The notes under the pieces were generated by a model. That model was given only the letters and a program-made list of their open reading frames with translations. It was not told the DNA's origin and searched no databases. From Robiginitomaculum sp. (GTDB lineage: Bacteria > Pseudomonadota > Alphaproteobacteria > Caulobacterales > Maricaulaceae): DNA of 64,000 nucleotides. Below, piece after piece: positions 31,697-62,591 of this stretch. The stretch covers positions 1-64,000 of the forward strand of contig JALSHE010000058.1 of the NCBI GenBank assembly GCA_026982415.1, written 5' to 3'. Each line of letters starts with the position of its first letter. The stretch's first letter is position 1. The translations under genes and the position numbers were made by a program.

Positions 31697-31734
31697 TGTC
31701 TAATCATCATTGTTGTGAGCGCGGTGTGCCTCGC

Positions 31735-31919
31735 TGGTATCCAAGCCCCTCACCTTGTTCCTCTCCCACCGGGAGAGGAGACTGTGCCGCAAATACCAAT
31801 ATTATCTCGGACATAGGGTGAAAATGTTAAAACAAAACCGAACACTTGAAATAAAAAAAACTGTTTCCACACCGTCTCCTCTCCTTTGGGGAGAGGAACA
31901 AGGTGAGGGGGTAAGGTGT
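31735..31919. repeat. REPIN/MITE-like palindromic element, copy A
   Basis: CCCCTCACCTTGTTCCTCTCCC...GGGAGAGG at left and the inverted GGGGAGAGGAACAAGGTGAGGGG at right; second copy at 62406-62591. Confidence 0.85.
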
Positions 31920-31971
31920 CAGAGATTGAGCACTATTTCGGCCATATATATATTGGGAGAGGTAAATTAAC

Positions 31972-39426: not shown

Positions 39427-39934
39427 TATTGCCACCGCCAGTTTTTCTATAGCTATCCAGTTTTCTATAGCTCCCGGATTTGCCGCCCGTTTTCTCCAAC
39501 AGTTCAATATTGGTAATCTGCATGGCTTTATCTACGGCTTTCAGCATATCATAAATAGTAAGACAGGTCACGGATACGGCGGTTAAGGCTTCCATTTCAA
39601 TACCCGTTTGCCCGGTGGTTTTGACACGCGCTTTTACCCGAAGGCCTGGCAAGTTATCATCGTGTTCGATCTCTATTTTTGCACTCGTAATCGGCAAGGG
39701 GTGGCAGAGCGGGATCAGGTTGGCAGTTTGCTTGGTCGCCATGACACCCGCGATTTCTGCGACCGTAATGACGTCGCCTTTCTTGGCTGTGCCGGATTTA
39801 ACCAAAGCCAAAGTTTCTACCCGCATACGCACACATCCGCTAGCAATCGCCACACGTTCCGTCACGGCTTTATCCGAAACATCGACCATGTTAACGCGGC
39901 CTTGGTCGTCGAAATGTGTAAGTTTGTTGCTCAT
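39419..39934 (-). CDS. moaC: cyclic pyranopterin monophosphate synthase MoaC
   Basis: 171 aa; [54 protein letters not shown]. Confidence 0.97.
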
Positions 39935-40473
39935 GTTTCAGTAAGTCTGGGCATAAGTTCAACCAAATTACACGGCCCGTGGCGGCTATCCAGTTGCGGG
40001 CAGATGACTTTGTCCCAGCCATCTTTACAAGCTCCATTAGAGCCGGGCAGGGCAAAGATAAATGTACCGTTAGCCGTGCCCGCTACGGCGCGGGAGGCTA
40101 GTGTCGATAGGCCAACTGATTGAAAGCTGACCATGTGAAACACATGGGAGAAGCCCTCTATGGTTTTCTCGAACAAAGGCGTGACGGCTTCGGGGGTGAT
40201 GTCGCGCCCCGTAAGACCTGTCCCGCCCGAGCTGATCACCACATCTACATCATCCGCATCAATCCATTCTTTGACCTGCGCCCGAACCGCAGGGATGTCG
40301 TCGCGCAATATCTTACGGTCTGCCAGTTCGTGTCCTGCGGCAACCACACGGTCTGCCAATAATGCACCCGATGTGTCGTCCTCAAATGTGCGGGTGTCGC
40401 TGACCACCAATACGGCAATGCGTACTGGTTTAAATTCTTTGGTTTTGTCAATGCCTTTCATAGCGTGTCCCAT
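39931..40473 (-). CDS. moaB: molybdenum cofactor biosynthesis protein MoaB/MogA family
   Basis: 180 aa; [44 protein letters not shown]. Confidence 0.93.
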
Positions 40474-40907
40474 CTATCACTATCTTTATAATCTTCTGCG
40501 CGCGGCTCTATCCATTTAGTGCCGTGTGCACCTGTCTGTCGTTTCCAGAATACAGCTTCTGTCTTCAGATAGTCCATTAAATAATCACAAGACAAGAAAG
40601 CGTCCCGGCGGTGTATTGCCGCAGTTGCCACTAAAACTATAGGTTCGCCGACGCCCATAGCCCCGGTGCGGTGGATAACCACCACACCCGTAAGCGTCCA
40701 ACGGGTATTGGCCTTGGTCACCGCATCTTGAATGCCAGCTTTGGTAACACCAGGATATTGTTCGAGGTATAGTTCGTGGACGCTACCTGTTTCGCCTCGG
40801 ACTTGCCCCAAAAAACTGGTGATAGCCCCAGCATCGCTATTGGCTTTGGTGAAAGCTTCAAGTTCTATTACAGGGTTAAAGGGGGTGTCGATAATTTTTA
40901 TCATCAA
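40458..40907 (-). CDS. moaE: molybdopterin synthase catalytic subunit MoaE
   Basis: 149 aa; HRTGAMGVGEPIVLVATAAIHRRDAFLSCDYLMDYLKTEAVFWKRQ. Confidence 0.95.
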   Translation of the reverse strand: MMIKIIDTPFNPVIELEAFTKANSDAGAITSFLGQVRGETGSVHELYLEQYPGVTKAGIQDAVTKANTRWTLTGVVVIHRTGAMGVGEPIVLVATAAIHRRDAFLSCDYLMDYLKTEAVFWKRQTGAHGTKWIEPRAEDYKDSDRWDTL

Positions 40908-41152
40908 CCGCCACCGACCGGGGGGAGAAAGCCAATTTCTTCGTCGCCGTTCAGCGGTATATCTGCGTGGACGAGCGCCTGATTAATCATGGTTTTCACA
41001 GACGGATCGTCCAACGCGCCGTCCAGTTCATGAGCGGTGTTCAGCCAGTGCTTTAGCGCGGAAATTGTGGTCACACCTTCAGGCAAAGCCATCGTCTCCG
41101 CGCGCCGCCCTGCGCTTTCGTGCAAGCGACCAAAATATAATATTTTTATCAT
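40904..41152 (-). CDS. moaD: molybdopterin synthase sulfur carrier subunit MoaD
   Basis: Start MIKILYFGRLHESAG; C-terminal di-glycine PPVGGG. Confidence 0.94.
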   Translation of the reverse strand: MIKILYFGRLHESAGRRAETMALPEGVTTISALKHWLNTAHELDGALDDPSVKTMINQALVHADIPLNGDEEIGFLPPVGGG

Positions 41153-41156
41153 AGGT

Positions 41157-41921
41157 CTAAGATAGTACCATTTGAGAAAATTTCCAGAGCAATCTAACTG
41201 CGACAAATAGAACCAGAATTGCCGTCATCTTGCGCACGGTGTTTTCTGAAAACACCTTAACGCTCATGTGGTTGCCAATGAAGCCGCCAATGATAACCAT
41301 TGGGGCGAGTAGCCAATAGGGATGGGTGTTTTCCAATTGTTCGATACCGCCAAGCTTGACCAATTGCCCGGTAAGGCCAGATACGGAATTAACCAAAATG
41401 AAAAGACTACACAGAGCCGCAATTTCCTTTGCCTTGCCCCAACCTATGCGGTGCAAGACGGGGGCTAGGAAAATTCCGCCGCCTATGCCAACAATGCCCG
41501 ATAGTAAGCCAAGACCTGCACCGATAACTGCACTAAGCGCTAGAGATGCTGCAGCTTTTGGGTTGGGTTTTACCGCTGGTTTGAACAACAGGGACAGCCC
41601 TGCGAATAAAAGCGCCAGCGCCAGTAAGCCAATGAATATGGTTTCGGGCACATGAATGCGCCCGCCAATCAAGGCCATAGGTACAGACAACACCATGAAC
41701 GGCCAGACACGCGCCCACGATATGAGGCCAGCACGGCTATACCGCCAAGTATTGCCGCTCACGACTAAAATATTGCACATCAAAGAAATTACAGGAATGA
41801 TCAGGATATTGGCACCTGCCAACACCAGCAAGGCCGTATAGGTGGAACCTCCGCCAAAGCCAACACTGGCGTAAAGCAAGGCGGTGAGAAAAAACAGGCT
41901 GGCAAGAAGTGCGACTTTCAT
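41157..41921 (-). CDS. TauE/SafE-family sulfite/anion exporter, membrane protein
   Basis: Preferred start MKVALLASLFFLTALLYASVGFGGGSTY at 41921; GLLSGIVGIGGGIFLAPVLH motif. Confidence 0.9.
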   Translation of the reverse strand: MKVALLASLFFLTALLYASVGFGGGSTYTALLVLAGANILIIPVISLMCNILVVSGNTWRYSRAGLISWARVWPFMVLSVPMALIGGRIHVPETIFIGLLALALLFAGLSLLFKPAVKPNPKAAASLALSAVIGAGLGLLSGIVGIGGGIFLAPVLHRIGWGKAKEIAALCSLFILVNSVSGLTGQLVKLGGIEQLENTHPYWLLAPMVIIGGFIGNHMSVKVFSENTVRKMTAILVLFVAVRLLWKFSQMVLS

Positions 41922-41949: not shown

Positions 41950-42570
41950 ATGGCTAGAAAAAAACACCCTACCGGAAAACTTCCTTGCATGATTTTATGC
42001 GCCGGAACCTCCAAACGATTTGGCAGTAATAAAATGCTGGCGCCTCTGGCCGGGAAGCCTTTGCTCGCGCACACGATTGAACGTATGCGGCCACAGGTCT
42101 CTGATTTGGCACTTAATGGTGAAGAAAGGGAATATGGCGAATTCGGACTGCCAATTTTCCCGGATGCAATCGTGGGAAAGCTTGGGCCTTTGGTGGGCAT
42201 TTTGACGGCAATGGAATGGGCGGCGCGGCTTGGCTATGAGCGTGTTCTAACCATATCTGGAGATACGCCATTTGTGCCAGATTGCTTGGCAGAGATGTTA
42301 GCGAACATCCAAGGTAATGGCATAGTTTTGCCGCAGGTGGAAAACAGGCGTCATCAAATATGCGGATTTTGGCCTGTTGGCGAGGCTTCAAATCTCCGTG
42401 CATATTTGCAAGAGGAGAGGGATTACAAAGTAGGCAGTTTTTTGATGTCCTGCGAGACAACAATATGTCTATTTCCCAAGAAAAACGGTGTTGATCCGTT
42501 TTTCAATATTAATACTCAGGAAGACATGCAAAGAGCGGAACAAATATTAGAGCAACGAAACCGAATGTAG
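41950..42570 (+). CDS. mobA: molybdenum cofactor guanylyltransferase MobA
   Basis: 206 aa; MILCAGTSKRFGSNKMLAPLAGKPLLAHTIERM; FNINTQEDMQRAEQIL. Confidence 0.88.
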   Translation: MARKKHPTGKLPCMILCAGTSKRFGSNKMLAPLAGKPLLAHTIERMRPQVSDLALNGEEREYGEFGLPIFPDAIVGKLGPLVGILTAMEWAARLGYERVLTISGDTPFVPDCLAEMLANIQGNGIVLPQVENRRHQICGFWPVGEASNLRAYLQEERDYKVGSFLMSCETTICLFPKKNGVDPFFNINTQEDMQRAEQILEQRNRM

Positions 42571-42850
42571 AATCACTTTGAGCGCTTGATTTTACACCGT
42601 GAACAGGAGCCGTTCTTGCCGTGATGCCATAGCATCACAAGGGGGCGACGACGCATTCACGATGTAAAAGCAAGTGGCCCGGTTAAAAAAAATATATATT
42701 TCAACCCTTTACTAATGGCTTGGGCGATCTTTGTTTTTTGACGTCGTTGCGTTCCTTGACCGATGCTAAAGCATCGCTCTGCGAACCGCGTCTAGGCAAA
42801 AAACAAATCACATCCCATCAAAGTGGTTCTATATTCGGTTTCGTTGCTCT
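42549..42850. repeat. nested inverted-repeat element between convergent mobA and moaA
   Basis: 33-bp arms at 42549-42581 and 42818-42850 (2 mismatches) enclosing two further imperfect hairpins. Confidence 0.85.
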
Positions 42851-43847
42851 AGCCACCCGTAGCTGACATGTGACGAGTAGTTCCAGATTTATTGCCCGAT
42901 TTTTTAATCTCAAAGTCGTGCTTTTCTGGCTTGTTTATCATGGCTTGGTCTAAGGATTGATTGAGTGCTTCTCTGCCACCAACGCGTAATGCTTCGCGCA
43001 AATTGACATGGGCGCCGTGACCCAGGCACATATATAGTTTCCCAGTGCAGGTGACACGCACCCTATTACAGCCTGCGCAGAAGTTTTTGCTCAAAGGGCT
43101 GATGAAACCTAGGCGTCCGCCAGTTTCGGCAATGTTCACATAACGCGCAGGGCCGCCTGTGGTCTCTGCTGTATCGTGTAGCGCCCATTTTTTCTCTAAA
43201 TTATTACGGATTTCCGAAACAGGGATGAACTGGTCAAAGCGGTCTTCGCCCGTATCGCCCATAGGCATAACTTCGATGAGCGTCATGTCCATGCCGCGCT
43301 CATGCGCCCATGTTACCATGTTGGGGATGTCGTCAGCATTGTCGTTTTTCAAGACAACCGTATTGATTTTTAATTTCAGTCCAGCACTTAGCCCGGCGTC
43401 TATGCCTTCTAAAACCCGTGTCAGGTTTCCGCCGCGTGTGATGCGATTGAAAGCGAGCGGGTCTAAACTATCAAGAGAGACATTGATTCGTTCCACACCT
43501 AAACTTTTGAGCCGTCCAGCGAATTTGTGTAATTGGGTGGCATTGGTCGTCAGTGTAATCTCGTCGAGGCGTCCCGCATTGAGGTGCCGTGATAAATGCT
43601 CCGCCAAAGTCAGAAAACCTTTGCGCACCAATGGTTCGCCGCCCGTTAGGCGTATTTTACGCACCCCGCGCGCGATAAATGCATCTGCGACATGGCCCAA
43701 TTCTTCAAGGCTAAGTAGGTCTTTTTTAGGTAAGAAAACCATTTGTTCAGCCATGCAATAGAAACAACGCAGATCGCACCGATCCGTGAGGGACAAGCGC
43801 AAATAAGTGACATTGCGGCCAAAACTGTCTGTCAAAATTTTACTCAT
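42849..43847 (-). CDS. moaA: GTP 3',8-cyclase MoaA
   Basis: 332 aa radical SAM; LSLTDRCDLRCFYCM; FCAGCNRVRVTCTGKLYMCLG. Confidence 0.96.
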   Translation of the reverse strand: MSKILTDSFGRNVTYLRLSLTDRCDLRCFYCMAEQMVFLPKKDLLSLEELGHVADAFIARGVRKIRLTGGEPLVRKGFLTLAEHLSRHLNAGRLDEITLTTNATQLHKFAGRLKSLGVERINVSLDSLDPLAFNRITRGGNLTRVLEGIDAGLSAGLKLKINTVVLKNDNADDIPNMVTWAHERGMDMTLIEVMPMGDTGEDRFDQFIPVSEIRNNLEKKWALHDTAETTGGPARYVNIAETGGRLGFISPLSKNFCAGCNRVRVTCTGKLYMCLGHGAHVNLREALRVGGREALNQSLDQAMINKPEKHDFEIKKSGNKSGTTRHMSATGG

Positions 43848-62405: not shown

Positions 62406-62591
62406 TGGCATTCAAGCCCCTCACCTTGTTCCTCTCCCCAAAGGAGAGGAGGCGGTGATTTGCGGGCTTTTGTGTCCTTGAATGTTTTTTTTGATGCTGG
62501 CGTCTATCACCGTAAGAATGAGAATAATATGGAATTTGCGCCAGCGTCTCCTCTCCCATGGGGAGAGGAACAAGGTGAGGGGGTAAGATGT
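62406..62591. repeat. REPIN/MITE-like palindromic element, copy B, between orphan ORF and nuoD
   Basis: Shares CCCCTCACCTTGTTCCTCTCC...GGAGAGGAACAAGGTGAGGGG termini with 31735-31919. Confidence 0.85.

Follow-up and report, generated by a model that had tools for sequence, protein, structure and literature searches.

The 304-bp sequence between the 3′ ends of the convergent genes mobA and moaA is, in our confident assessment, a non-autonomous DNA transposon (MITE) inserted at a TA dinucleotide. It lies in a 64,000-nucleotide stretch of a Robiginitomaculum sp. contig, the whole of which is referred to here as the window. Four characteristics of a MITE were found together: terminal inverted repeats, a TA duplication, dispersed copies, and the lack of a transposase gene. 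In the list of open reading frames, none of 80 aa or more falls inside the element. The features of the locus are as follows.

41950–42570, plus strand: mobA, encoding a MobA-like NTP transferase (PF12804, E 2.5e-28), its 3′ end replaced by the element
42548–42851: the whole MITE, 304 bp including both TA copies, recognized by inverted-repeat arms, other copies, and an empty site in relatives
42548–42549: left TA target-site duplication; L139, L140, and L141 have one TA here
42548–42581, plus strand: left terminal inverted repeat, TAGAGCAACGAAACCGAATGTAGAATCACTTTGA, from the inverted-repeat arms
42568–42570, plus strand: new mobA stop codon TAG, within the left terminal repeat, read from the sequence
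42570–42574: GAATC, a GANTC (CcrM-type) site at repeat position 23; the opposite arm has GAACC
42592–42671, plus strand: module A, structural, with its sense on the plus strand (model R2, 42.7 bits, E 2.8e-9; in the training set)
42672–42726: A+T-rich spacer between modules A and B, the least conserved part of alignment A1
42727–42806, minus strand: module B, an inverted copy of the same module (model R2, 75.7 bits, E 1.2e-18; in the training set)
42818–42851, minus strand: right terminal inverted repeat, from the inverted-repeat arms
42849–42851, minus strand: new moaA stop codon TAG, formed by the target TA and the first base, G, that the terminal repeat adds; sister species have TAA
42850–42851: right TA target-site duplication, also bases 1 and 2 of the moaA TAG stop on the minus strand
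42849–43847, minus strand: moaA (radical SAM and Mob_synth_C domains, PF04055 and PF06463), ending ...SATGG and then TAG

A first-pass annotation, made from the sequence alone, had described a nested palindrome at 42549–42850 with two further hairpins inside. The pairing is present, with arms one base longer at each end (42548–42581 and 42818–42851; 34 nt each, 2 mismatches, 94% complementary, 236 nt between them), and so are both inner hairpins. The plus strand folds with a predicted energy of −134.3 kcal/mol, compared with a mean of −84.5 (sd 5.3) for 100 dinucleotide shuffles, none of which was as stable (z = −9.4). Intrinsic terminators, defined as a GC-rich stem followed by a U-tract, were sought on either strand of 42548–42851, and none was found. 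The BLASTN search that the annotation had proposed, conducted with a 321-bp region, returned five more copies, whole or partial, in this genome, and the palindrome is consequently no chance pairing. Three copies are full length with approximately 76–77% identity (contigs C46, C47, and C79), one on C18 is 96% identical with an internal deletion that takes out module A, and a truncated copy lies on C105, in addition to fragments. Matches were found in 5 of the 13 same-genus genomes screened. One sister genome has at least 14, many of them at contig ends, suggesting recent amplification. The repeat of the window copy also occurs without the inside, as a 42-bp element, TAGAGCAACGAAACC...GCTCTA (G000 C104:13647–13688; L010, L070), and as a solo arm of approximately 34 bp with TA at both ends (C56:11260–11294; L007); such very short elements are possible minimal substrates. 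Separately, another palindromic repeat, its arms reading CCCCTCACCTTGTTCCTCTCCC, occurs twice in the window (31731–31925 and 62417–62582), and similar sequence adjoins copies of the element elsewhere (L006, L155).

The insertion event can be read from relatives in which the site is empty. The relatives with the closest MoaA are, by name, Robiginitomaculum and Hellea MAGs. The annotation had called for a comparison of the mobA–moaA gap and of MobA C-termini in sister species; there, the two genes overlap and the element is absent. In L139, L140, and L141 (genomes G008, G007, and G005), the overlapping convergent ends read ...TTTTAGCCACCCGTAACGGACAT... or close variants, and the overlap recurs in L143 (G001), where the junction differs slightly. 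When the flanks in the window are brought together at a single TA, the result is ...ATATTAGCCACCCGTAGCTGACAT..., the empty site of the relatives. This shows that the insertion point was the TA of the ancestral TAA stop of moaA, within the 3′ overlap of mobA and moaA, and that TA was left at both ends. The earlier suggestion that a MITE-like insertion supplied the MobA C-terminus is thus borne out by the other copies, the intact empty site, and the TA at both ends.

Both stop codons are now supplied by the element. For mobA, a tail of approximately 11 residues that varies between species was lost and EQRNRM was gained instead; these final six residues and the TAG at 42568–42570 are encoded by the left arm, as the annotation had read them. 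It had also placed the right arm against the moaA stop. The contact is real, but the final three bases of the arm (42849–42851, minus strand) are themselves that stop. Because the repeat starts with G after the TA, moaA regains a stop directly after its GlyGly end. This C-terminal GlyGly, common to all relatives examined, is kept, and it has been called functionally relevant in a Neurospora homologue (PMC7232280). The element is probably near-neutral at this locus, where it separates two overlapping genes and would give both mRNAs structured 3′ ends. Minus-strand neighbors at window positions 39931–41206 encode MoCF_biosynth, MoaE, and ThiS/MoaD-like proteins, which places the element in a molybdenum cofactor gene cluster.

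The target could be reconstructed from elements flanked by TA on both sides. It was YTAR in 31 of 33 (CTAG 12, TTAG 9, TTAA 5, CTAA 5), and 13 of the 33 insertions lie exactly at the TAA or TAG stop of an open reading frame of at least 100 aa. While 2.9 would be expected for random TA within 300 bp, the expectation for random YTAR sites is 8.0 (P = 0.06). The stop-codon habit is mostly YTAR target preference plus tolerance. A further example is the element of L202 and L295, which lies between convergent genes that both end exactly on its TAG ends, with the CTAG target read as a stop from both sides. Across 58 elements, repeat positions 3–22 are 94% complementary within an element (mismatched in 6%), even though the repeats differ between elements. 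At repeat position 23, 18 of the 58 have a GANTC site, the CcrM methylation site, in one arm only, and none has it in both. The arms disagree at position 26 in 72% of all 58, including those without GANTC, and a link to CcrM methylation is consequently only a lead.

The inside of the element has its own architecture. Hairpins A and B are one module of approximately 80 nt in inverted orientation, with the consensus stem–TAGGCGCG–hairpin–CGCAACGACGTCC–stem or, in fuller form, outer stem–GGCTAGGCGCGG–stem, hairpin, stem–CGCAACGACGTCC–outer stem, starting approximately 57 nt from each end. The element is an inverted dimer of a half made up of a terminal repeat of approximately 34 nt, a stem, TAGGCGCG, the hairpin, CGCAACGACGTCC, and a stem, with the modules pointing inward. 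An alignment of 11 copies contains 97 pairs with 95.9% paired cells (about 40–48% when slid), and compensatory (double) changes occur in 38 of the 97 pairs (shuffled mean 16.9). Over the whole element, GU (76) and AC (73) pairs are balanced, which at first pointed to a DNA-only palindrome and spoke against the whole element as a simple single-strand RNA. This is resolved by the halves being inverted copies of one module, which is also why hairpin A is GU-rich and hairpin B AC-rich. With 39 modules considered, double-change cells number 230 versus 66 shuffled, pairs predicted on both strands are GU in 62 and AC in 13, and 36 of the 39 fold more stably as the sense strand. A set of 45 modules from other families, found with the model and not used to build it, has the same structure predicted on both strands. 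GU again exceeds AC (105 vs 29; 19 columns vs 4) and the sense strand is more stable in 44/45 with RNA parameters and 41/45 with DNA parameters, counts that are limited by these modules being related in sequence and having been found and aligned by a sense-strand model.

Since the stems covary strongly and GU outnumbers AC about 4:1 in the module-sense orientation, the module seems to be selected as a folded single strand, either RNA or ssDNA. The conserved internal loops suggest a bound protein, or an RNA or ssDNA structure required by the element. The annotation had offered a structured RNA from either strand in place of a mobile insertion; the structure holds up as a second layer, each strand bearing one covarying module, and not as a rival to the MITE. 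In some copies (L044, L187, L224, and L225; G005), the apical loops have gained an insert, e.g., CCCATTTTTGCTTTCGGG or CCCATTTTTGTTTTTTGGG, showing that hairpin tips grow in some lineages.

How much of this could be explained without a MITE deserves consideration. A structured RNA, such as a 3′-UTR-derived small RNA or riboregulator present because of its function at mobA/moaA, would fit the strong covariation, the strand-biased wobble pairs, and a position within the 3′ UTR of both genes. However, sister species lack the element at the same locus, copies adjoin unrelated genes in all orientations, and Rfam gave no match over the window and only a sub-threshold chance match over the element, which makes this account unlikely. 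Hairpins between convergent genes would also suit an elaborate bidirectional transcription terminator for the pair. Given that copies are mobile and that, of 44 scored, 24 lie between tandem and only 12 between convergent genes (by a simple ORF caller that mis-scored the window copy as tandem), we consider a terminator exceedingly improbable.

Two other accounts concern how the element moves or keeps its symmetry. REPINs are inverted hairpin pairs moved by an HUH (RAYT) transposase via a single-stranded intermediate, and the element shares with them an inverted doublet of hairpin modules with compensatory changes (PMC3116915); its modules also look single-strand selected. It differs in having a TA target duplication, terminal repeats that match the ends of DDE-transposase ISs, and modules of approximately 80 nt with two internal loops, far longer than REPs. 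The earlier label “REPIN-like” is therefore apt for the topology but not for membership, of which there is scarcely any chance. Gene conversion or template switching alone, without selection for the fold, might hold the arms complementary, and the 94% complementarity within elements whose repeats differ from one another is what it would produce. It leaves unexplained why unpaired motifs are conserved, why GU exceeds AC in one orientation, and why the geometry is constant, and is very unlikely as the whole cause. The MITE remains the preferred reading.

As a MITE, the element invites comparison with known systems. Like the TA-targeting Correia/NEMIS, RUP, and ERIC elements, it is short and non-coding, with terminal inverted repeats, TA ends, and highly paired predicted transcripts; for RUP, an IS630 element is the presumed mover (PMC2229807). 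Unlike them, it contains two inverted covarying modules and is longer (260–340 bp vs approximately 100–200), and here the terminal repeats vary widely while the inner modules stay. IS5-family (PF13340/DUF4096 transposase) and IS630-family ISs of the same bacterial family have TA-flanked ends as the element does, and over the first ~20 bases their terminal repeats resemble those of several element types, but they encode transposases whereas the element encodes nothing. CIR elements of Caulobacter were reportedly described by Chen and Shapiro in 2003. CIR is likewise alphaproteobacterial, with two hairpin arms joined by a linker and a GANTC site (PMC2229807, PMC10969869). As described there, CIR is approximately 110 bp, has GANTC at the apical loop, and lacks a terminal repeat, in contrast to 304 bp and 34-nt terminal repeats here (PMC2229807). 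When GANTC is present in our elements, it is in one terminal arm (position 23) and in none of the apical loops of aligned modules. By these reported features (PMC2229807), the element is not a CIR. Br-REP1 of Bradyrhizobium, also alphaproteobacterial, is a palindromic repeat located where the 3′ UTRs of convergent genes overlap, but it has the consensus CCGGAATCTCGAGATTCCGG and three adjacent palindromes, and the part of its report available describes no terminal repeat (PMC5082802). No description of the module was found in the open-access literature; the original reports of CIR, RIME, and Bru-RS fall outside that scope, and a prior description is possible. Within these limits, the element belongs to an apparently undescribed, widespread alphaproteobacterial family.

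Within the bacterial family, a whole-element model (R1) detected relatives in 15 of 137 genomes, covering 7 genera. With the module covariance model (R2, E of 1e-4 or better), the module was found in 37 of 385 alphaproteobacterial genomes under 25 family labels and in 30 genera. Its usual setting is as inverted pairs in TA-flanked elements of 260–340 bp. Where the ends of 20 class-level R2 loci were traced, 16 had a second inverted module approximately 100 bp away and most had TA-flanked terminal repeats; overall, both modules were present in 52 of 59 loci, always inward-pointing. Terminal repeats are very diverse (TAGAGC, TAGTGCCCCC, TAGCCCGCATTTCTC, TATACCAACGG, TAGGGTCC, and others), sometimes with several types per family label. 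Plasmids yielded a partial Rhizobium match and one two-module element with quite different ends, on a plasmid of Agrobacterium sp. MA01 (NZ_CP045856.1); a plasmid search with 13 terminal repeats joined end to end found no IS that matched convincingly. Carriage by phages was also considered, and no match was found. Many class-level matches (G342, G238, G213, G240, G523, and G375) consist of the module core only (model positions 11–66) and lack the outer stem, which suggests that a second sub-family sets this core in a different frame.

Which transposase drives these elements may differ between repeat types. In TAGG-type repeats, as many as 15 of 17 bases agree with the ends of IS5-family (PF13340) ISs (null mean 7, 99.9th percentile 12). 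The genus has an IS630-type IS (DDE_3) of 1074 bp with two ORFs in different frames, TAGAGCGTTTCGCGTT ends, and a CTAG target. TAGAGC-type elements match the IS630 element of G006 at 13 of 17 bases at best, and the window copy is below the 11/17 threshold; for this reason, we can only infer a candidate DDE transposase as its driver. An autonomous partner with the exact TAGAGCAACGAAACC repeat was sought in the genus, where only solo ends and MITE copies were found.

In the mechanism we propose, a DDE transposase from a TA-targeting IS (IS630-like or IS5/IS427-like) would act in trans on the outermost ~22 bp to move the element. Folded as a single strand of RNA or ssDNA, the inner module may aid the element or shield the host, and the inverted dimer would guarantee one correctly folded module on a transcript or single strand from either direction. 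Most likely, the element is selfish, tolerating and being tolerated. More tentatively, and with doubt outweighing confidence, the ~80-nt module with its TAGGCGCG / CGCAACGACGTCC internal loop may be an undescribed class of structured RNA or ssDNA, kept across the class as an inverted dimer. TA-inserting elements would then swap terminal repeats to exploit different IS families, with one working module on either strand controlling mobility or the cost of insertion.

Bacterial MITEs are usually viewed as IS remnants with nothing conserved inside. Here, the reverse is seen: conservation and structural constraint lie inside, across 25 alphaproteobacterial families, and it is the terminal repeats read by the transposase that vary widely. 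This predicts that a single folded module serves elements that different transposases move. The family also illustrates how an element whose repeat opens with G after the TA can land on a stop codon and restore it, so that insertions at gene ends can persist, including those where convergent genes overlap.
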